From assembly GCF_006489205.2 (NCBI RefSeq), contig NZ_VFYR02000005.1, positions 62,001 to 126,000 on the forward strand: a stretch of DNA of 64,000 bases, read 5' to 3'. Source of the DNA: Brevibacterium sp. XM4083. GTDB taxonomy: Bacteria; Actinomycetota; Actinomycetes; Actinomycetales; Brevibacteriaceae. Each line of letters begins with the position of its first letter. Position 1 is the stretch's first letter. The position numbers were made by a program, and so were the translations under genes. Below are positions 43,568-55,818 of this stretch, one piece after another. The notes under the pieces are model-generated. The model made no database searches and was not told the DNA's origin. It was given only the letters and a program-made list of their open reading frames with translations.

Positions 43568-44410
43568 TCAGCCGACGAACTCCTGGCGGATCGTGCCGAT
43601 GCCCTCGATCGTCGTCTCGAGGACCTGCCCCGGCTGGAGGAGCTTCGGCGGTTCGCGGGTGAAGCCGACTCCCGACGGGGTTCCGGAGAAGATGATGTCC
43701 CCGGGGTGAAGGGTGATGATCTCGGCGAGCTTTTCGACGAGAGAGGGCACGTCGAAGAGCATCTGACTCGTGCGTCCGTCCTGGACGACCTCTCCGTCGA
43801 GGGTGCCCGAGATCGCGAGATCGTCGCGGTTGGGCAGCTCATCGGGAGTCACGAGCCACGGACCCGTGGGGGAGTAGCCGGGGAAGGACTTGCCGAGCCC
43901 GAACTGCGGAGCCGGGCCGTCGAGCTGGATCACGCGCTCCGAGATGTCCTGGCCGATCGTGACGCCGGCGACGTAGTCCCAGCCGGTGCCCGTGGCGATG
44001 TCGTGGGCTTCGCGGCCGATGACGATGACGAGCTCGGCCTCCCAGTCGTTGTCCCCCTCGGCGACGAGCTTGACGGTCGTGTAGGGCCCGGTGATCGAGG
44101 ACTGGAACTTCGGGAACACGGGCGGCAGCTTGTCCGGGGTGTCGAAGCCGCTCTCCGTGACGTGCTCTGCGTAGTTGAGGCCCACTCCCATCGACTGCAG
44201 CGGTCGCGGGGAGACCGCTCCGAGCTGCGCGGGGTCGATGGTCACGGTCTCTCCGGTCGCCTCCGGTGCCCAGGCGAGGAAATCCTCCCACTGGTCGTAG
44301 ACGTTCTGGATCTCGGGTCCGAATCGACCGTCACTGGCAGTGGCGACATCGATGCCCTGGTTGTCGGCGGTGACGATGACGGCGCGGGAGTTGTGGTTGG
44401 CGAGTTTCAT
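43568..44410 (-). CDS. fumarylacetoacetate hydrolase (FAH)-family protein
   Basis: A 280-aa enzyme of the FAH superfamily, members of which hydrolyse or hydrate beta-diketo or enol acids from aromatic breakdown (acylpyruvases, 2-hydroxyhepta-2,4-diene-1,7-dioate isomerases, 2-keto-4-pentenoate hydratase-like). Metal-site and core motifs are NYAEHVTESGF near 81-91, DWEAELVIVIGREA near 122-135, TIGQDISERVIQ and IITLHPGDIIFSGTPSGVGFTREPP near 234-258. AGAAGGA precedes the ATG. It lies 52 nt downstream of the extradiol dioxygenase gene and is surely co-transcribed with it, so it should act on the ring-cleavage product. Confidence 0.9.
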   Translation of the reverse strand: MKLANHNSRAVIVTADNQGIDVATASDGRFGPEIQNVYDQWEDFLAWAPEATGETVTIDPAQLGAVSPRPLQSMGVGLNYAEHVTESGFDTPDKLPPVFPKFQSSITGPYTTVKLVAEGDNDWEAELVIVIGREAHDIATGTGWDYVAGVTIGQDISERVIQLDGPAPQFGLGKSFPGYSPTGPWLVTPDELPNRDDLAISGTLDGEVVQDGRTSQMLFDVPSLVEKLAEIITLHPGDIIFSGTPSGVGFTREPPKLLQPGQVLETTIEGIGTIRQEFVG

Positions 44411-44462
44411 GGGTGTCCTTCTGTCTCGGTGGCGTGATCGTGATGGCGGTCAGGCGCGAAGC

Positions 44463-45341
44463 TCAGCGCTGACGATTGGGAATTCCGTGATCGAGGATCT
44501 CTGCCGGCACCTGACCGTCCCACTGGTTGATCCAGTAGAGATCGTCGGGATCCCAATGGCGGGCCGGGCGATCCTTGTCGCGGATCGTCTCCATGTCGCA
44601 GTAGTACTCGATGACCGCGCCGGTCGGCTCCACGTAGTAGACGGCGACGTTGTCGCCGGCCCCGTGTCGCACCGGCCCCCAGGCCAGTCGCGCACCCCGC
44701 CGGGCCAGGCGGTCGCCGAGGCGGACGAGGTCGTAGACATTCCCGGCCTGCCAGGCGTGGTGATGGATGCCCGTCTTGTTCGAGGTGAAGATCGCGACCC
44801 CGTGATGGTCGTTGTTGCACCGCATGAAGAAGTGCTCGTTGCCGATCTGGTCGGAGACGGCGAAGTTGAAGACGTCCTTGAAGAATTCCGTCTGCGCCGG
44901 GGCGTCGAGGACCTGGATGTTCGTGTGGCCGAGACGGTCCGGCGCCGTCGTGCCCCGCTTGAGCATGCTGTAGTCGAGCTTCTCGGTGTAGATCTGCCAC
45001 GTGAAGCCCTCGGGACCGACGAAGGCGAAGCCCTCCTCGATGTGGTCCTCGATCGGCTGCTCGGAGACGATCCGGTATCCGCCGCGATCGACCTTGGCAC
45101 GGATCGCCTCGAGCTCCGCGGAGTTCTCGACGACGAGTCCCTGATGGTCGACGGCGTCCTGGTCGGACTGTGTGTAGACGAGCTCGTGGTGCTTGTTCTG
45201 CGCGGTGAGGAACGCCTTCTTCGCCGTCGACTCCGTCTCGACGAGACCGAAGACGTCGACGGCATTGGAGATGGAGGCGTGGAGATCCCTGGTGAGCAGG
45301 GAGACGTAGCCGATTTCCGAGATGGATCCTTGTGCGGTCAT
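44463..45341 (-). CDS. extradiol ring-cleavage dioxygenase (type I, VOC fold)
   Basis: A 292-aa two-domain VOC protein similar to catechol 2,3-dioxygenase and homoprotocatechuate 2,3-dioxygenase. Residues 8-122 form the first module and residues 135-255 the catalytic one. The likely Fe(II) or Mn(II) ligands are the His in RLGHTNIQV (about residue 137), one His in TGIHHHAWQAG (about 193-197) and the Glu in GAVIEYYCD (about residue 246). Conserved active-site His and Tyr residues follow in NVAVYYVEP. GAGGAG precedes the ATG. It is first in an operon with a FAH-family hydrolase and divergent from a GntR regulator. Ring substrate (catechol, homoprotocatechuate or other) is not determined. Confidence 0.86.
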   Translation of the reverse strand: MTAQGSISEIGYVSLLTRDLHASISNAVDVFGLVETESTAKKAFLTAQNKHHELVYTQSDQDAVDHQGLVVENSAELEAIRAKVDRGGYRIVSEQPIEDHIEEGFAFVGPEGFTWQIYTEKLDYSMLKRGTTAPDRLGHTNIQVLDAPAQTEFFKDVFNFAVSDQIGNEHFFMRCNNDHHGVAIFTSNKTGIHHHAWQAGNVYDLVRLGDRLARRGARLAWGPVRHGAGDNVAVYYVEPTGAVIEYYCDMETIRDKDRPARHWDPDDLYWINQWDGQVPAEILDHGIPNRQR

Positions 45342-46191: not shown

Positions 46192-47163
46192 TCAGCTGCC
46201 GGGGAGTTCGGCTGAGAGCTGTCGGCGGTGACGCAGGGGAGGGATGCCGAAGCGGTCGCGGTAGGTGCGGGAGAACTGCGCTGCCGACCGGAAGCCGCTG
46301 CTCGCGGCGACCTCAGCCATGCTCAGGCCCGCGGCGTGCGGATCGGCGAGCAGCCCGGCCGCCGTGTCGAGGCGGGCACCGAGCACGGCGCGGGGCACGC
46401 TCAGCCCCGCCTCGGCGAGGATGCGGGTCAGCTGCCGCTCCGAGACCCCGAGGTGACCGGCGATGCGCGCGGCACTCAGATCGGGCTCCCGGTGATGGTC
46501 GGCGATGACGGTGAGCGCCTCCTCGACGATGCCCCCGCCGGGCGCGGCCGCGCCGAGCACGCTGCCGAGCAGGTCGAGGAGGCGGCCCTCAAGAGGCGCG
46601 CCCCCGCCGAGGCCACGGTCGATGAGGCCCTCGGCCACCTCGGCGAAGGCCCGGCCCGGGGCGGTCGGACTCGCGGAGTCGTCGAGGTCGAGAACGGTCG
46701 GGGTCGGCCACGAGGACCCGCCGGTGAGATCGGTGAGAGTGGGGCGGGGCAGTCGGACGACGAGCTCATCGACTCCGGCTCCGAGGCTGCGCGCGAACGC
46801 GGTGTCACCGTCGACGACGATGCCCCGGCCGGGCCCCAGCGTGAGCTGTCCTCCCCGATGGGCGAACGTGCTCGCTCCCCGCAGCGGCAGATAGACGAGT
46901 GCCCCTGACGCCGGGTGGCCGGCGATCTCGGCAGGCCCGCGCCGCACGGAGTGCGGAGTGCCCGTGACCTTGGCGATGCGCACCTGCGGGAGGTCGAGGG
47001 TCGAGGTCACCGCGCGGAAGGCGGCGCCGCCGGCGGAGACGGTGCGCAGCCCCACGAGGGCCGCGGCGTGGTAGGCCTCCCAGTCCTCGACACGGCGCGC
47101 GGGAGGCGCGGCGTCGGTGGAGAACCGCGCTCGCACCGGTGGGTCTCCCGCACTCGCGATCAT
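46192..47163 (-). CDS. AraC-family transcriptional regulator of the hydroxyquinol genes
   Basis: A 323-aa regulator with an N-terminal AraC-binding-like (ActR/XylS-type) domain (GALVYLPLRGASTFAHRGGQLTLGPGRGIVVDGDTAF region, residues 85-125) and a C-terminal AraC helix-turn-helix pair near residues 225-318 (SAARIAGHLGVSERQLTRILAEAG; MAEVAASSGFRSAAQFSRTYRDRFGIPP). It is divergent from the aromatic hydroxylase and ring-cleavage genes and is their likely activator. On the minus strand TACGAT lies 7 nt before ATG 47163, which argues for a leaderless start there; ATG 47172, three codons earlier, is the alternative. Confidence 0.88.
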   Translation of the reverse strand: MIASAGDPPVRARFSTDAAPPARRVEDWEAYHAAALVGLRTVSAGGAAFRAVTSTLDLPQVRIAKVTGTPHSVRRGPAEIAGHPASGALVYLPLRGASTFAHRGGQLTLGPGRGIVVDGDTAFARSLGAGVDELVVRLPRPTLTDLTGGSSWPTPTVLDLDDSASPTAPGRAFAEVAEGLIDRGLGGGAPLEGRLLDLLGSVLGAAAPGGGIVEEALTVIADHHREPDLSAARIAGHLGVSERQLTRILAEAGLSVPRAVLGARLDTAAGLLADPHAAGLSMAEVAASSGFRSAAQFSRTYRDRFGIPPLRHRRQLSAELPGS

Positions 47164-47315
47164 GCCTCTCATCGTAGCCGTGCCCGCGTGACCCAGATCT
47201 CAGCTTTTTGACGATTTCGGCCACGATCACCTCGGCGAGATGACCCCGCGCACCGGCCCGTGCCACCCTCGAGGCCAAGCGGAAACCACCGCACCACACG
47301 ACAAGGAGAGTCACC

Positions 47316-49145
47316 ATGGTCATCTTCGACGACGGAGTCGCAGAGACAGCCACCCCGGACGGGGACATCGTCGACACCGACGTCCTCATCGTCGGTTCGG
47401 GGCCGGCAGGCGCCTCAGCGGCGCTGTTCCTCTCGACCCTCGGGATCCCCAACATCATGATCACGAAGTACCGGTGGACGGCGAACACCCCGCGTGCCCA
47501 CATCACGAACCAGCGGACGATGGAGATCTTCCGCGACGTCGGCATCGAGGATCAGGTCCTCGCCGAGGCGACCCCGCACGAGATGATCGGCGACACCGTC
47601 TTCTGCACGTCCATCGCCGGCGAGGAGATCGGCCGGATCCTCACCTGGGGAAACCACCCGGCCCGGCACGCCGACTACGAACTCGCCTCGCCGTCGCTCA
47701 ACTGCGACATCCCGCAGACCTACCTCGAGCCGATCCTCGTGAAGAATGCGACGATGCGGGGCACGCAGGCCCGCTTCTCCGCCGAATACCTCTCCCACAC
47801 CCAGCATCCCGACCACGTCGACGTCGAGGTCCTCGACCGCCTGACCGGCCGGGTGCTGACGATCCGCGCGAAGTATCTCATCGGCGCCGACGGCGCCCGG
47901 TCGAAAGTCGCCGCCGACATCGACCTGCCCATGGTCGGGGACATGGACATCGCCGGGTCGATGAACATCACCTTCACCGCCGACCTCGAGAAGCTCGTCG
48001 GGCACCGGCCCTCGGTCCTCTACTGGGTCATCCAGCCGGGATCGAACATCGGCGGCATCGGCGCGGGACTCGTCCGCATGGTCAGACCGTGGAACGAGTG
48101 GCTCATCGTGTGGGGCTTCGACATCGCGCAGGGGCCGCCGGAGGTCACCGAGGCCGACGCGCTGCAGATCGTGCGCAACCTCATCGGCGACCCGGACCTC
48201 GACGCGACGATCACCGGGATCTCGCTGTGGGGCAACAACGAACAGTATGCGAGCCGCCTCCAGTCGGGCCGGGTGTTCTGCGCGGGGGATGCCGTGCACA
48301 AGCACCCGCCGTCGAACGGACTGGGATCGAACACCTCGATCCAGGACTCCTACAACCTCGCGTGGAAGATCGCAGCCGTCCTCCGCGGCGAGGCCGGAGA
48401 GGACCTGCTCGAGACCTACAGCGCCGAGCGCGCCCCGGTCGCCGAGCAGATCGTCACCCGGGCCAACAAGTCCGGTCGTGAGTTCGCCCAGCTCTTCGAC
48501 GCCCTCGGGCTCACTCCCGACCAGACCGAGGAGGAGATGAACGAGGCGATCGCCGCCCGCAAGGATGCCACCGCCGACGGCGCAGCGATGCGAGCGAAGG
48601 TGAGGGAGGCGATGGAGGTGAAGAACTACGAGTTCAACGCCCACGGTGTCGAACTCGGACAGCGCTACGTCTCCACGGCCGTCGTCGCCGACGACCGGGA
48701 GCCTGCGGAGAACCCGCGCGATCCCGAACTCTACTACCAGGCAGGCACGGATCCCGGTGTGCGCCTGCCCCATGCCTGGGTCGGCAACTCGCGGGAGAAG
48801 CTCTCCACTCACGACCTCGCCCCGTACACCCGGTTCACCCTCCTCACCGGGACGACCGGCGCCGGCTGGGAGGAGGCGGCGCAGACGGCCGGGCAGCGCC
48901 TCGGCGTCGACATCGGCACCGTCGTCATCGGCCCCGACCGCGACGTCACCGACCTCTACTTCGACTGGGATCGCCTCCGCGACGTCGCCGAGGACGGTGC
49001 GATCCTCGTCCGTCCCGACAAACACGTCGCGTGGCGGGTGCCCTCCCTGCCCGACGACGCCGCCGACCAGCTCACCTCAGCTCTCGCCGCTATCCTGGCG
49101 ACGAGACCGGCAGACTCCGACGAAAGGCTCGGTGACATCGCATGA
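47316..49145 (+). CDS. FAD-dependent aromatic hydroxylase (phenol/resorcinol monooxygenase type)
   Basis: A 609-aa class A flavoprotein monooxygenase. Motifs are the FAD dinucleotide fold [15 protein letters not shown] at residues 23-37, the ADG motif in [13 protein letters not shown] near 189-200, and [31 protein letters not shown] near 322-352. A thioredoxin-like C-terminal domain is typical of phenol-hydroxylase-like enzymes. It probably hydroxylates resorcinol or a similar phenol with NAD(P)H and O2 to hydroxyquinol, because the next gene encodes hydroxyquinol ring cleavage. AAGGAGAG precedes the ATG, and the stop overlaps the next start (ATGA). Confidence 0.88.
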
Positions 49146-51133
49146 CCCTCGATTTCACGCACACCACCCTCGGCCAGCGCGTCGTCTTCGGCACCGGGCA
49201 GGTCGCTGCCTCAGTCGCCGCGGAGGTCGAGCGCATCGGGGCCGAACGGGTCATGGTCATCGTCTCCGGGTCCGCCGCGGACAAGGTCACCGACTTCACC
49301 GAGCACTTCCCGGTCGCCCTGTGGCACCGTGAGGTCGTCATGCACGTGCCCGCCGAGGTGGCTGACCGTGCCGTGGCCGCCGCCGAAATCGGCGACATCG
49401 ACCTCGTCGTCAGCGTCGGCGGCGGTTCGGCGACGGGGCTGGCGAAGGCCGTCGCACTGCAGACGCGGATCCCCGTCATCGCCGTGCCCACGACGTTCTC
49501 CGGCTCGGAGGCGACGAACGTGTGGGGGCGCACCGAGAACGGCCGCAAGCGCACCGGGGTCGATGATGCGGTCCTGCCGCGCACGGTCATCTACGACGCC
49601 GAACTGCTGCGCGGCCTGCCTCACGACCTCGCCGTCGCCTCGGGCCTCAACGCCCTCGCCCACTGCATCGACTCGCTGTGGGCCCCGGCCGCCGACCCGA
49701 TCAACCGGGCGCTCGCCGTCGAAGGCATCCGGGTGCTGAGCGAGGGGCTGCCGCAGCTCGGCGCGGAATCCTCCGCACTGGCCGGGCTCGAGTCCACGCT
49801 CTACGGCGCCTACCTCGCCGCCGTCGCCTTCGCCTCGGCGGGATCGGGCATGCACCACAAGATCGCCCACGTCCTCGGCGGCACCTTCAACCTCCCGCAC
49901 GCCCAGACCCACGCGATCGTCCTGCCCTATGTGCTCGCCTTCAACGCCCCCGCCGTGCCCGAGGCCGAAGCGCGGATGGCGGAGGCGTTCGGAGCCGAGA
50001 CCGCGGTCGCCGGACTCCAGCGGCTGCGCGAGGCCGTCGGCGCCCCGCGGGCACTGTCGGAGCTGGGGTTCGCCTCCGGGGACATCGCCGAGGCGGTCGA
50101 CCTCGCCCTCGAAGCGATCCCAGGTGACAACCCCCAGCCGGTGACGCGGGAAAACCTCACCGCGCTGCTCACCGCCGCCTGGCGCGGCGACGACCCGCAG
50201 ACCATCGCTGCGCAGGGCCCGACAGCCGGGACCGCCGAGGCGGCCGGGGACGATGCCGGGCTCACCCCGGCCGCGGTCGAGGAGAGGCTCATCGACACCG
50301 TCATCTCCTCGTTCTCAGGCACCCCCGACGACCGCCTCCGGCAGCTGATGACCGCGGTCGTCACCCACCTCCACGGACTCATCCGCGACGTGCGGCTGAC
50401 CGAGGACGAATGGAATCAGGCGATCGGATTCCTCACCGACGTCGGACACATCACCGACGACCGCCGGCAGGAATTCATCCTCCTCTCCGACGTCCTCGGC
50501 GCATCGATGCAGACGATCAACGTGAGCAACCAGCCGTACCGTGATGCCACCGAGGCGACGGTGTTCGGACCGTTCTTCGTCGACGACGCCCCGCTCATCC
50601 CCGCCGGAGGGGACATCGCCGGGGGCGGTGTCGGAGAGCCCTGCTGGGTCGAAGGCGTCGTCCGCGACACCGACGGCAATCCCGTGTCCGGTGCCCGCAT
50701 CGAGGTCTGGGAAGCCGACGAGGACGGTCTCTACGACGTCCAGCACGATGACGACCGCGTCTACGGGCGGGCGCATCTGTTCTCCGACGACGACGGGTCG
50801 TTCCGGTTCTGGGCGCTCACCCCCACCCCGTACCCGATTCCCGACGACGGCCCGGTGGGGCGGCTGCTGGCGGCGACGGGGCGCTCGCCGATGCGGGCGA
50901 GCCACCTGCACTTCATGGTCACGGCCTCAGGCTTGCGCACGCTCGTCACCCACATCTTCGTCTCCGGTGACGAACTGCTGACCAGCGATTCGGTCTTCGG
51001 TGTCAAGGACTCCCTCATCAAGGACTTCGCGCAGCAGCCGGCGGGCACCCCCACTCCCGACGGCCGGGACCTCGGTGACGTGCCGTGGTCGCGCACGCGC
51101 TTCGATATCGTGCTCGCTCCCGCAGGCGTCTGA
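49142..51133 (+). CDS. fused maleylacetate reductase / hydroxyquinol 1,2-dioxygenase
   Basis: A 663-aa bifunctional protein. Residues 1-352 are an iron-type alcohol dehydrogenase fold like maleylacetate reductase: [14 protein letters not shown] at 93-106, [14 protein letters not shown] at 116-129, metal-type histidines in [24 protein letters not shown] and [14 protein letters not shown] Gly/Ala-rich linker (353-373) leads to an intradiol dioxygenase at 374-663 with its helical N-terminal domain. Its non-haem Fe(III) ligands would be Y531, Y564, H588 and H590. The dioxygenase makes maleylacetate from hydroxyquinol and the reductase turns it into 3-oxoadipate, so two consecutive steps sit on one chain, in reverse order. 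Coupled to the hydroxylase gene by ATGA. Confidence 0.93.
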
Positions 51134-51152: not shown

Positions 51153-51875
51153 TCACCCGGTGGCTCGTGCGCCGGTCTCGTCGATCCAGATCCACCCGTC
51201 GGGCAGCGGCGCCCACGCCGCGACCTCGCGAACGGACTTCGAGGAGTCGGCGAGGACGATGACGCTGCGGGCGCGCTCGGCGATGAGCTCCTTCGTCCGC
51301 GCCTCGGCGAGCGTCGGCTCTCCGATCCCGACGTCCGGGTCGACGGCGTCGGCGCCGAGGAACGCGACGTCGACGTGGAGGCGTGCGAGTGCGTGATCGC
51401 TCAGCGCTCCCGTCGTCCCGTGTGAGAGCGTCGAGACCTCACCGCCGACCATGGTCACACGCGGACCGTTCGGGTGTGCGAGCGTCAGGGCGATCTCGAG
51501 ACCTCGCGTGATGACGATGAGGTCATCGCGGTCACGGAGGCGCTCGGCCACCCGCACGGTCGTCGATCCGGCGTCGAGGAAGATCGTGCGGACCTGCCCG
51601 CTCAGGTGGCTCACGGCGTGGGCGGCGATCGCGTCCTTCGCCTCGGCCTGGTGCTCCATCCGCTGACCGAGCGGGGGTTCGACGTACCCGGCGGCAGTCG
51701 CCCCGCCGATCGTGCGGATGACCTCGCCGGCCTCGGCCAGCTCCCGCAGATCCCGCCGGATCGTCGACTCCGAGGTCCCGAGTTCAGCGGCCAGGCGCGG
51801 GATCGACCACGCCCCCGACTTCAGCCGGGACCGGATGTCGTCGCGGCGTTTGGCCGTGCCGCTGCGCACGGCCAT
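51153..51875 (-). CDS. DeoR-family transcriptional regulator
   Basis: A 240-aa regulator with an N-terminal DeoR helix-turn-helix (residues 8-60: RRDDIRSRLKSGAWSIPRLAAELGTSESTIRRDLRELAEAGEVIRTIGGA region) and the DeoR C-terminal sugar-phosphate-sensor domain (FLDAGSTTVRVAERL; VAFLGADAVDPDVGIGEPTLAEA). The ATG shares a base with the TGA of the pdxA-type gene (TGATG), making it the last gene of the acid-sugar operon and probably its repressor. The ligand is likely a phosphorylated intermediate such as D-erythronate 4-phosphate or DHAP (inference). Confidence 0.9.
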   Translation of the reverse strand: MAVRSGTAKRRDDIRSRLKSGAWSIPRLAAELGTSESTIRRDLRELAEAGEVIRTIGGATAAGYVEPPLGQRMEHQAEAKDAIAAHAVSHLSGQVRTIFLDAGSTTVRVAERLRDRDDLIVITRGLEIALTLAHPNGPRVTMVGGEVSTLSHGTTGALSDHALARLHVDVAFLGADAVDPDVGIGEPTLAEARTKELIAERARSVIVLADSSKSVREVAAWAPLPDGWIWIDETGARATG

Positions 51876-52921
51876 CACCGCGGCAGGTACTCCGCGCGGA
51901 TGCCGTCGACGAAGGGCGCATAGCCGATCGCCGCACGGTAGGCCGAGCGCATCGTGCCGGCATCGGCGAGTCCCCGTCCGGCGATGTCGAAGGCCGTGCC
52001 GTGGTCGACGGAGGTGCGCAGGATCGGCAGGCCCACGGTCACGGAGATCGTGCCGTCGAAGTCGTACGTCTTCGAGGCGATGTGCCCCTGGTCGTGGTAC
52101 TGCGAGAGGACCCCGTCGAAGCGGCCGGTCAGCCCCTGGTGGAAGACCGAGTCGGCGGGGATGGGGCCGGCGACGTCGAACCGGCCGGCGGCGTTGACGG
52201 CATCGACGGCGGGTCGGAGGATCTCGATCTCCTCGTCCCCGAACGCCCCGTTCTCCCCGCCGTGCGGATTGAGGGCGGCGACGGCGAGGCGCGGAGCGGT
52301 GACCCCGTAGAGCTGCAGGGCCCGATGGGCGCGTTCGATCGAATCGATCTGCGTCTCGACGGACAGCGCGTCGATCGCCTTCCGCAGCGACATGTGCCGC
52401 GTGGCGAAGAAGATCTGGAGCTTGTGGTCGGGGACCTTCGCGTTCTCGACGACGAACATCGTGTCCTGCTTCGTCACCCCGGTGAGCTCACCGAGCATCT
52501 CCGTGTGCCCGAGGTGCTCAGAGCCGGACTGCCACACGGCCTCCTTGTTGATCGGTCCGGTGACGATGCCGGCGATCTCCTCATCCATCGCCGCCTTGGT
52601 CGCGACTTCGATGGCCGTGACCGCGGCCCGGCCGGCGCGCGCGTCGACGACGCCCCAGTCGGGCAGGTCGTCACCGAGCACGCCGATGTCGAAGACGTCG
52701 ATGACGCCCTCTCCCGCCGAGGCGGTCGCGAAGTCGGTGATCGGGCGGAGTTCGACGTCGAGTCCGAGGACGTCGACGGCGCGTCTCATCACAGCGAGAT
52801 CGGCGACGGCGACGCCGTGCTGGTCGTCGCGGGCGGAGAACTCCGCGAGCACCTGGGCGGTGATCTCCGGGCCGATCCCGACGGGATCTCCCACGGTCAC
52901 GGCGAGGACGGGTGCGGTCAT
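51875..52921 (-). CDS. PdxA2-type four-carbon acid-sugar 4-phosphate dehydrogenase
   Basis: A 348-aa NAD-dependent, divalent-metal enzyme of the PdxA family. Motifs are VTVGDPVGIGPEI near residues 6-18, IVTGPINKEAV near 102-112, GHTEMLGEL, LNPHGGENG and LSQYHDQGHIASK with metal-binding histidines. Canonical PdxA acts in vitamin B6 synthesis, but this copy is in an operon with a DUF1537-type kinase and a GntP permease. It therefore belongs to the PdxA2 branch, which oxidises D-erythronate- or D-threonate-4-phosphate with decarboxylation to DHAP. The ATG at 52921 has AAGGAG 6 nt upstream; an upstream in-frame ATG at 52948 is less likely. Confidence 0.88.
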   Translation of the reverse strand: MTAPVLAVTVGDPVGIGPEITAQVLAEFSARDDQHGVAVADLAVMRRAVDVLGLDVELRPITDFATASAGEGVIDVFDIGVLGDDLPDWGVVDARAGRAAVTAIEVATKAAMDEEIAGIVTGPINKEAVWQSGSEHLGHTEMLGELTGVTKQDTMFVVENAKVPDHKLQIFFATRHMSLRKAIDALSVETQIDSIERAHRALQLYGVTAPRLAVAALNPHGGENGAFGDEEIEILRPAVDAVNAAGRFDVAGPIPADSVFHQGLTGRFDGVLSQYHDQGHIASKTYDFDGTISVTVGLPILRTSVDHGTAFDIAGRGLADAGTMRSAYRAAIGYAPFVDGIRAEYLPR

Positions 52922-52963
52922 GTCATGCTCCTTCGGTGGTGCGGTCAATGGTCGGCATCGGGC

Positions 52964-54334
52964 TCATCCCTGCCCGACCCGGGAGGTCGCCATGAGGTAG
53001 TCGAGGCAGAGGGCTGCCGTGTCGGCATCGCCGATGAGCCCGCCCTTGGTGACGATGGGCAGACCGTCGGCGCGTCCGCCGACGAGGCGACCGCCGACGG
53101 CGAGCGGGATGATCTCCCGCTCGAGTTCCATCCCGACGGCGCCCACGGCGCGCATCACCGCGGCAGTGACATCGCCGCCGGTGGTGTAGAGGCCGGTGAC
53201 GGCCGGAGAGGTCATGATGAGCTCGGCGATGGCAGCGAGCCTGCGGGTCGTCTCCTCGGACGCGGCGCTGCTGAGCTCGCGCAGGTCGGAGGCGTCGACG
53301 ACGGTGGCGATGATGATCGCCTTCGCCGAGGTGACGCTGTCGACCCGTGCGATCGTGGCCTCGACATCGGGCAGCCCCTCGTCGTCGAGGACGACGCGGA
53401 GGACGGAGATGAGCGGGTCCTCGTTCAGCGTCGCGAGCTGGGCACGGGTGACCTCGGTGGCCGACCCGGAGATCCCGAGGATGACACCGTTGGGGCGGGT
53501 CGGCAGCAGCGGCAGGGCGAGGGCGAGACTGCCGGGGCCGGGATCGATCGTCACCCAGTCGAGGAGCTCGCCCGTGCCCGGATTCGCCGGCAGGCGGGTC
53601 GCCCCACCGGCGGCGATCTCGCGGGTCACGGCGGCGACGACGGAGCCGACGAGTTCGATGTGCTCGGTGGTGAGCGCATCGACGATGATGACGTCGGCAC
53701 CTGAGGCGATGCCGGCGAACACCGCCTCCCGGACGGCGTGGCGACCGGCGAGCACCTGGGAGATGTCGATGAGATGGCAGTCGAGGTCGGTGCCGTCGCG
53801 CAGGATCTGCGCGACATCGGAGGTGTACATGGGGGAGCGGACGTCGCGGCGCAACTCCGTGTGTTCGAGCAGGCGTCCGTCGAGCAGCTGCAGCCCCTCG
53901 ACCGTCGTGCGGCCGGCGGCAGGGAAGGCGGGAATGCAGAGGCCGATGACCCTGCTGGCCGGGCCGTCCGCGCCGGCGGCGAGCTGCCGGCGGGCAGTCA
54001 GCGCCGCCTCGGCGCTCACCCCGACATTGCCCCGCAGCGTCGTGTCGATCCGGCAGGCGACGAGGTCGACGTCGCCCGCGCTCGCCACGAGCTCTGCGAT
54101 GAGCTCGGCCGCGGTGGCCGCGGGCAGGTGCCGGGAGTCGGCGTTGAGGACGACGGCGTCGTAGTCGTCGAGGAGGACGTCGAGGTCGACCGTCTCCGTC
54201 GCACTCGTCCCGGTCACGGTGATCGTCCGCAGACCCGCCTCGGCGAAGAGGGCCCCGCACGCGTTCCCGCCGGTGAGGTCGTCGGCGATGATGAGGATGC
54301 GCGACGTCTCAGCGTCGCCGTCTGCACTGCTCAT
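52964..54334 (-). CDS. four-carbon acid sugar kinase (DUF1537 family)
   Basis: A 456-aa kinase of the family acting on D-threonate, D-erythronate and similar tetronates. The N-terminal sugar-binding domain has ILIIADDLTGGNACGALF (residues 12-29) and the conserved NADSRHL and CRIDTTLRGN stretches. The C-terminal nucleotide-binding domain has LPLLPTRPNGVILGISGSATEVT and TGLYTTGGDVTAAVM followed by LPIVTKGGLIGD. It would phosphorylate the acid sugar taken up by the GntP permease and hand it to the PdxA2-type dehydrogenase. ATGA overlap with the permease gene; 42 nt separate it from the dehydrogenase gene. Confidence 0.9.
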   Translation of the reverse strand: MSSADGDAETSRILIIADDLTGGNACGALFAEAGLRTITVTGTSATETVDLDVLLDDYDAVVLNADSRHLPAATAAELIAELVASAGDVDLVACRIDTTLRGNVGVSAEAALTARRQLAAGADGPASRVIGLCIPAFPAAGRTTVEGLQLLDGRLLEHTELRRDVRSPMYTSDVAQILRDGTDLDCHLIDISQVLAGRHAVREAVFAGIASGADVIIVDALTTEHIELVGSVVAAVTREIAAGGATRLPANPGTGELLDWVTIDPGPGSLALALPLLPTRPNGVILGISGSATEVTRAQLATLNEDPLISVLRVVLDDEGLPDVEATIARVDSVTSAKAIIIATVVDASDLRELSSAASEETTRRLAAIAELIMTSPAVTGLYTTGGDVTAAVMRAVGAVGMELEREIIPLAVGGRLVGGRADGLPIVTKGGLIGDADTAALCLDYLMATSRVGQG

Positions 54335-55818
54335 GCGACCGCGTCGAGGACGAAGAGGAGCGGGATGGAACCCAGCCACACGGCGGTCGTGATTCCCGAC
54401 CAGCCCTTGATCGCCTGCACCCCGTCGAGGCCGGCGAAGCGGGTGACGACCCAGAAGTACGAGTCGTTGAAGTAGGAGAAGACCATCGATCCCGCGGTGC
54501 ACGCCATGACCGCGACGAGCGGGCTGAGTCCGAGCGGGGCGATGAGCGGGGCCGTCACCGAGGCGGCGGTGATCATGGCGACCGTGCCCGAACCCTGTGC
54601 GATGCGCACGAGGGAGGCGATGATGAACGGGACGAGGAGAGCGGGCAGGCTGATCGAGGCGATCGCCTCGGCGAGGGCGTCTCCGACCCCGGATTCACGC
54701 AGCACCATGCCAAAGCTGCCGCCGGCGCCGGTGATGAGGAGGATGAGCCCGGCCGACGCCGCGGCGTCGGCGAGCCAGCTCTGGACCTGGGTGCGCGGGG
54801 TCAGACGCGGCAGGAGGGTGTAGACGGCGAGGACGAGGCCGATGATGAGGGCGACGACAGGGTTGCCGAGGAACGCGATGGGAGCGACCCAGGCAGACGG
54901 CTCATAGTCATCGCCGGCGAGCATCCCCTGAGCGTTGCGGTCGATCGCCGTCGACACCGTGTTCGCGACGATGAGGAGCAGCGGGATGATGAGCGGGAGG
55001 AAGCCGAGGAACGCACCCGGCTGCTTGGCTCCCGAGATCCGCGGGCCCGCGATGCCGTCACCGGTGTCCGGCGCTGCGGATCCGGCGGCCGTCGCATCAG
55101 CGGCGGGCGTGCCCGTAGCCGCGGTCGCCGTTGGTCCTGCAGACTCCGGGGCTCCCGCGGTCACCGTCGCGTAGACGTCGTGCTTGACCTTGACGTTGAG
55201 GAAGGGTTCGAGCTTCGGTCCGATCCAGCGGGCGTAGATGACGACGACCGGCAGGAGGATGACGGTGAAGATGAGACCGGTGAGGATGACGGCTCCGAGA
55301 TCCGCGCCGAGGATGCCGGTCGCCGCGAGCGGGCCAGGGGTCGGCGGGACCATGTGGTGGGTCAGCGTCATGCCGGCCCCGAGGGCGAGGGCGAGCGTGA
55401 TGTAGCCGCCGCGCTTGACGCGGGCGATCGAGCGGGCGAGGGGGTTCATGATGACGTACCCGGAGTCGCAGAACACGGGAATCGAGACGAGGGATCCGAC
55501 GGTGCCCATCGCCCAGGGCTCACGGCCCCTGCCGAAGGCGCGGAGGAAGGCGCGGGCGAGCGAGTCGGCGGCGCCGGAGACCTCGAGGATCTTGCCGATG
55601 CCCACGCCGAGGCCGATGACGATGCCGATGCTCGCGAGGGTGTTGCCGAACCCGGTGGTCACGGCGTCGACGATCGAGAGCAGATCTTCACCGGCGACGA
55701 TGCCGGTGACGATCGCTGCGAGGAGGAGTGCGATGAAGGCGTCGAGGCGGGTGGCCAGGACGATGACGACGATCGTCGCGATCCCGGCGACGAGGGCGAG
55801 GATGAGCTGCAGGTCCAT
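54331..55818 (-). CDS. GntP-family permease
   Basis: A 495-aa membrane protein with about 12-14 hydrophobic helices of the gluconate:H+ symporter family. Stretches like GLGVGIGKILEVSGAADSLARAF, FCDSGYVIMNPLARSIARVKRGGYI and VPPTPGPLAATGILGADLG near residues 70-175 are characteristic, as is LLITGAGGSFGMVLRESGVG. A Thr/Ala/Gly-rich loop of about 45 residues near 220-260 is longer than usual. First gene of the acid-sugar operon; GGAGG precedes the ATG. Substrate by context: D-erythronate, D-threonate or another tetronate. Confidence 0.9.
   Translation of the reverse strand: MDLQLILALVAGIATIVVIVLATRLDAFIALLLAAIVTGIVAGEDLLSIVDAVTTGFGNTLASIGIVIGLGVGIGKILEVSGAADSLARAFLRAFGRGREPWAMGTVGSLVSIPVFCDSGYVIMNPLARSIARVKRGGYITLALALGAGMTLTHHMVPPTPGPLAATGILGADLGAVILTGLIFTVILLPVVVIYARWIGPKLEPFLNVKVKHDVYATVTAGAPESAGPTATAATGTPAADATAAGSAAPDTGDGIAGPRISGAKQPGAFLGFLPLIIPLLLIVANTVSTAIDRNAQGMLAGDDYEPSAWVAPIAFLGNPVVALIIGLVLAVYTLLPRLTPRTQVQSWLADAAASAGLILLITGAGGSFGMVLRESGVGDALAEAIASISLPALLVPFIIASLVRIAQGSGTVAMITAASVTAPLIAPLGLSPLVAVMACTAGSMVFSYFNDSYFWVVTRFAGLDGVQAIKGWSGITTAVWLGSIPLLFVLDAVA

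Follow-up and report, generated by a model that had tools for sequence, protein, structure and literature searches.

Maleylacetate reductase (MAR) and hydroxyquinol 1,2-dioxygenase (HQD) are consecutive enzymes of hydroxyquinol degradation. In Corynebacterium glutamicum, the rol and rhcM2D2 operons provide the same enzymes and pathway as the locus described here, but as two polypeptides, with MAR and the ring-cleavage enzyme of resorcinol use on separate genes (PMC7764795). A single-chain form is annotated in Streptomyces, where RefSeq lists a "maleylacetate reductase and hydroxyquinol 1,2-dioxygenase domain-containing protein" (e.g. WP_112443237.1) with the same two domains in the same order and an adjoining FAD-dependent monooxygenase, as in our locus; the architecture itself is therefore already annotated. 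AdhE and BdhE, whose domains we take to be partners in one pathway and to stand in pathway order, offer a parallel. They are described as convergent fusions that, like the protein studied here, join an Fe-ADH-fold domain to a partner from the same pathway (PMC12454647); the Fe-ADH domain is C-terminal in AdhE and BdhE, whereas it is N-terminal in the present fusion.

The fused gene and its operon

We examined a 64,000-nucleotide stretch of the Brevibacterium sp. XM4083 genome (contig NZ_VFYR02000005.1), referred to below as the window. A single uninterrupted frame on its plus strand, from an ATG start to a TGA stop (49142–51133), encodes a MAR-HQD fusion of 663 amino acids. The MAR domain occupies residues 1–357 (49142–50212, plus strand), as indicated by its match to PDB entry 3iv7 and by structural alignment, and the HQD domain occupies residues 378–663 (50273–51130, plus strand), as indicated by its match to 1tmx and by Foldseek. 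Pfam placed Fe-ADH and ADH_Fe_C on residues 12–347 of the protein, and Dioxygenase_N and Dioxygenase_C on residues 396–646.

The top PDB sequence match of the MAR half was 3iv7 from C. glutamicum (residues 3–357, E 2.2e-135), and a structural alignment, restricted to rows of the MAR half, superimposed 349 residues on this entry (Z 53.2, rmsd 1.7). The four top matches other than HQDs, by sequence and by structure alike, were 3iv7, 3jzd, 3w5s and 3hl0, the first, second and fourth of which are classed as MARs in PMC5125639. By fold and closest sequences, the N-terminal half fits the MAR subfamily of Fe-ADHs (cd08177). The top PDB sequence match of the HQD half was the Nocardioides simplex HQD, 1tmx (residues 378–661, E 4.5e-137), which ranked third in a Foldseek search with the first AF2 model. 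This entry scored 462 bits, versus at most 107 bits for chlorocatechol and catechol dioxygenases, so that, judged by these scores, the half is closer to HQDs than to catechol enzymes. Because the 3iv7 match ends at residue 357 and the 1tmx match begins at 378, we assigned residues 358–377 (50213–50272, plus strand) to a linker of 20 residues. It is rich in Ala and Gly and is predicted to be disordered, with pLDDT below 50 at residues 357–373 in the first AF2 model and 358–374 in the second.

Nine active-site positions were invariant in all 129 compared MAR-HQD rows, including 33 of 33 fused ones. In the HQD half these are Tyr531 (50732–50734), Tyr564 (50831–50833) and the pair His588 and His590 (50903–50911), all on the plus strand and all predicted Fe(III) ligands. 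They correspond to the 2-Tyr/2-His iron ligand set of intradiol dioxygenases. In the MAR half, His174, His239, His243 and His253 are kept, and the motif GLNALAHC places Asn170 (49649–49651, plus strand; position mapped by motif) where metal-binding Fe-ADHs have an Asp ligand. A review states that MARs are active without metal, perhaps owing to replacement of this Asp by Asn or Arg (PMC5125639); by this rule, together with Asn in 129 of 129 rows, we rejected a metal-dependent MAR half. Asn in place of the metal-ligand Asp is the usual MAR state. The preliminary description of the locus had proposed a natural fusion of two consecutive pathway enzymes on one chain, in the reverse of pathway order (MAR N-terminal, HQD C-terminal), with a flexible linker of 20 residues and a complete set of metal ligands in each half. 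These proposals agree with our results except the last, which holds for the HQD half and fails for the MAR half at Asn170.

Immediately upstream, and overlapping the fusion gene by 4 nt (ATGA, 49142–49145), lies a gene for an FAD phenol hydroxylase, probably of the resorcinol type (47316–49145, plus strand; Pfam FAD_binding_3 and Rng_hyd_C). Its closest PDB relative is 2-hydroxybiphenyl 3-monooxygenase (4cy6, E 4e-185), and the operon suggests that its likely substrate is resorcinol. An AraC-type regulator upstream is divergent from this hydroxylase-fusion operon (46192–47172, minus strand). Farther out on the minus strand (43568–45341), genes for a glyoxalase-type, extradiol-like dioxygenase and a fumarylacetoacetate-hydrolase-family protein adjoin a GntR/FCD regulator; the hydroxyquinol operon may thus have another ring-cleavage cluster as its neighbor. 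On the other side (51153–55818), a DeoR regulator and a PdxA-like dehydrogenase, followed by what are, by eye, probably a four-carbon acid sugar kinase and a permease, look like a threonate-type catabolic cluster. PADLOC returned no match.

Integrity of the fusion and loss of the junction

The same fusion is carried by Brevibacterium sp. W7.2, on a complete chromosome, with 95% identity to the window protein and a 3-residue in-frame indel within the linker. For this pair, dN/dS (Nei-Gojobori) was 0.146 in MAR and 0.112 in HQD, and 0.58 in the linker, the last value resting on 25 codons of one pair. Both the MAR half and the HQD half are under purifying selection. Because of the W7.2 fusion, the in-frame indel and the low dN/dS of the domains, we conclude that the joined frame and both halves are maintained. 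The opposite reading, that an assembly error or frameshift joined two genes or that one half has decayed to inactivity, is highly improbable: no point in its favor was found, it would have to accommodate a second, complete genome, an indel that keeps the frame and selection on both domains, and all nine key positions are kept. The occurrence of the same fusion on the W7.2 chromosome excludes chance or artefact, a concern raised when the locus was first described.

The nearest unfused relative is B. casei, which has the same enzymes, pathway, gene order and upstream hydroxylase as the window but makes two polypeptides. There MAR and HQD are adjacent in different frames, MAR ends in its own TGA stop, and HQD has its own ribosome site (AAGGAG, in the spacer) and its own ATG. 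In the window and W7.2 junctions, the TGA, the AAGGAG and the HQD ATG are all absent. Comparison of these junctions with that of B. casei indicates that, in the common ancestor of XM4083 and W7.2, a MAR-HQD gene pair lost its MAR stop, its spacer, its ribosome site and the start of HQD. The linker contains no in-frame ATG, GTG or TTG, and between codons 320 and 400 the sole such codon is a GTG at 334, within the MAR domain. Going by the reading frame, HQD is produced as part of the fusion, barring release by a protease. With no separate HQD start close to the junction, both activities would be present 1:1 on one chain and close together.

The reverse domain order is inherited: it is that of the ancestral separate genes. 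Among 101 unfused adjacent pairs, from which near-duplicates were largely removed, 95 had the order MAR-HQD and 6 the order HQD-MAR, in a sample biased by the collection of loci with MAR-HQD queries. None of the six adjacent HQD-MAR pairs was fused in that order.

Separate genes close to the fused state were also seen. In several loci (L006–L009, L011–L015, L021 and L037), MAR and HQD lie in the same frame with one stop between them (two in L011); with a single stop between, such pairs are one mutation short of fusion, and readthrough is possible. One member of the window's genus (locus L088, genome G039) has a separate pair in which MAR is frameshifted in its C-terminal part and the HQD frame is open. 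Two candidate fusions were rejected. A single-piece match in Azospirillum lipoferum proved to be two genes with one stop between them, and locus L019 consists of two genes with HQD truncated by the contig end.

Distribution and number of fusion events

To compare fused and separate genes, a survey proposed in the preliminary description, we considered the best 80 of 218 confirmed loci, all named. Two were fused (W7.2 and Amycolatopsis acidicola), 59 had adjacent separate genes (including the truncated L019), 7 had MAR and HQD about 1.1–1.2 kb apart, and 12 had an HQD without MAR in the locus. We also sampled genomes by taxon; these samples overlap and are mostly even draws from larger groups, and the frame test covered part of the genomes with two matches, so that the fusion counts are lower bounds. 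The 57 genomes of the window's genus included three with the fusion (G000; G035, which matches W7.2; and G056), five with separate pairs (G005, G006, G021, G028 and G044), one with the frameshifted MAR noted above and one with MAR alone (G007), and extension to the family added three genomes and no match. Of 396 genomes of the order, 23 matched and at least three had the fusion (G000, G056 and G172); G172 was alone in carrying it among the six genomes of its own genus and the 13 of its family.

At broader scales, 19 of 396 genomes of the phylum matched, with at least one fusion (G000), and 18 of 394 genomes of the class matched at E 1e-100, with at least three (G000, G1159 and G1206). Two further genera were surveyed under labels inferred from tree neighbors and named records: an Arthrobacter-like genus, in which 55 of 198 genomes matched and at least one carried the fusion (G926), and a Streptomyces-like genus, in which 121 of 392 genomes matched at E 1e-80 and at least 27 had the fusion in one frame. 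Five of the 12 rows listed for named Streptomyces plasmids had the same fusion. One Streptomyces-like genome, G1466, has a full-length fusion and also a second fusion-like copy (C7, 308207–309877; 66%, residues 1–557) with one internal TGA. As the preliminary description had suggested, the fusion occurs in other actinobacteria, namely in Brevibacterium, A. acidicola, Arthrobacter-like and Streptomyces-like genomes; both states were found, with adjacent separate genes in most sampled relatives.

We constructed a quick LG+G4 tree of 129 concatenated MAR and HQD rows, with SH-aLRT support only, from which L069, L088, L142, L148 and L185 were left out for incomplete domains or a frameshift. An 85-row tree, from which L069, L088, L130, L139, L142 and L185 were left out for the same reasons, did not include the Streptomyces-like clade. 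The 85-row tree required five state changes and the 129-row tree six, all six forced by starred branches; these trees do not support one ancient fusion common to all. On the 129-row tree the fused state seems to have six origins: the window with W7.2, G056, G926, A. acidicola, G172 and the Streptomyces-like clade. The window and W7.2 share a single event, and their sister is B. casei with its separate genes (99, starred). The other Brevibacterium fusion, G056, groups with unfused B. aurantiacum and relatives, and the Arthrobacter-like G926 is paired with unfused G361. G172, a member of the window's order, is a single fused row, as is A. acidicola; both have longer branches, and their exact placement is less certain. 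The 27 Streptomyces-like fused rows form one old clade without any separate pair inside.

The window protein thus falls, on the 129-row tree, in a different fusion event from the Streptomyces family; two members of that family (G1159 and G1206) are 46–47% identical to it. Loci of the two groups also differ in arrangement: the Streptomyces-like fusions precede the hydroxylase gene, whereas the window fusion follows it. In all three Streptomyces-like loci checked (L258–L260), the fusion adjoins an FAD hydroxylase of this type, and a hydroxylase adjoins the S. cadmiisoli fusion; no hydroxylase match was found near the G926 fusion (L197). By its place on the tree, the window protein is an independent fusion event of an annotated architecture. 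The recurrent origin is the part of interest here. No earlier description of it, nor any report of a MAR-HQD fusion, was found in open-access titles and the beginnings of abstracts, a collection from which subscription journals are mostly absent, in keeping with the initial impression that the fusion is little studied.

Probable function of the fused protein

By analogy with relatives, the pathway would lead from a phenolic substrate through hydroxyquinol and maleylacetate to 3-oxoadipate. The upstream FAD hydroxylase would form hydroxyquinol; the C-terminal HQD half, by family and ligands, would convert it to maleylacetate at a 2-Tyr/2-His Fe(III) site; and the metal-free N-terminal MAR half would use NAD(P)H to turn maleylacetate into 3-oxoadipate. 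We think it probable that the fusion is a bifunctional two-step enzyme, within an operon of two genes and three enzymes, that provides fixed 1:1 stoichiometry and proximity. We expect its effect to be proximity and fixed stoichiometry, not a tunnel.

Channelling of maleylacetate was suggested in the preliminary description. In its true form, the active sites would face each other, or dimers, the form that MAR and HQD take in relatives, would build a complex, so that maleylacetate is handed over unreleased. This would fit the six inferred origins, each of which joined this consecutive pair in one constant order, and PMC4921024 describes several fusions of neighboring enzymes that produce or consume unstable metabolites, the MAR-HQD pair not being mentioned there. 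We nevertheless consider it unlikely in view of the linkers. Measured as alignment gaps, these are 25 residues in the window, 29 in W7.2, 12 in G056, 6 in A. acidicola, 9 in G172, 29 in G926 and 10–41 in Streptomyces-like proteins, a range of 6–41 residues. The window linker is predicted to be disordered in both AF2 monomer models, and their pTM of 0.58, with no confident packing of MAR against HQD, would fit two domains free of a fixed arrangement, whereas channelling interfaces are reported for AdhE and BdhE (PMC12454647). In eight close Streptomyces-like pairs, dN/dS was 0.18–0.37 for MAR and 0.15–0.21 for HQD, except in the pair L229/L232 (HQD 0.65, at a dS of 0.023), and linker dN/dS exceeded that of both domains in seven of seven computable pairs (10–22 codons each), as it does between the window and W7.2.

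A serious rival to proximity and stoichiometry is a nearly neutral loss of the stop between closely packed operon genes, which would leave both enzymes unchanged and bring no benefit; we regard it as a real possibility, though short of an even chance. Among the genomes sampled, five of the six fusions turned up just once or twice, and 19 separate-pair rows (counted with duplicates, three of them partial) already share a frame with only stops between the genes. The G926 fusion (L170, 1501–3510) retains an in-frame HQD ATG at codon 373, preceded by CAGGAG, and on this evidence may yield free HQD as well as the fusion. Set against this, the Streptomyces-like fusion persists across 27 genomes, with identities as low as about 65%, and its clade on the tree contains no separate pair, although the second copy in G1466 has its TGA. 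A control is offered by the 40 loci in which the hydroxylase gene lies immediately upstream of MAR: hydroxylase and MAR were fused in none of them, versus MAR and HQD in 4 of the same 40 (Fisher p = 0.12), a suggestive result that leans against pure adjacency.

In the XM4083 genome a second HQD stands alone (L195, 6613–9140, contig C2); it is 68% identical to the fused HQD, and its gene overlaps one for an FAD monooxygenase. No MAR was found near it in the 14 kb examined, and no second MAR among Fe-ADH family matches above the cut-off in the genome. The only other match above the cut-off (29% identity over 109 residues) resembles glycerol-phosphate dehydrogenases by eye, and a third, weak one (L264, 25.3 bits) fell below it. 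W7.2 has a similar stand-alone HQD copy (67%). Because the second HQD has no nearby MAR and no other MAR was found, the fused MAR may also serve free maleylacetate.

Returning to proximity and fixed stoichiometry, we tentatively raise a repeated drive to fuse MAR and HQD, with at least six independent events in actinobacteria and MAR always first, though the odds are somewhat against it. If it exists, the shared cause would be a benefit from maleylacetate kept near the reductase or from the two activities locked 1:1, and the fused lineages would offer a natural experiment on what makes successive catabolic enzymes join. It has long been asked whether such enzymes gain from proximity, from stoichiometry or not at all, and some six apparent fusions with close unfused relatives (B. 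casei, B. aurantiacum and G361) make a matched, direct comparison possible. An arrangement that places hydroxylation and the next two steps in two genes may also be useful for engineering aromatic degradation.
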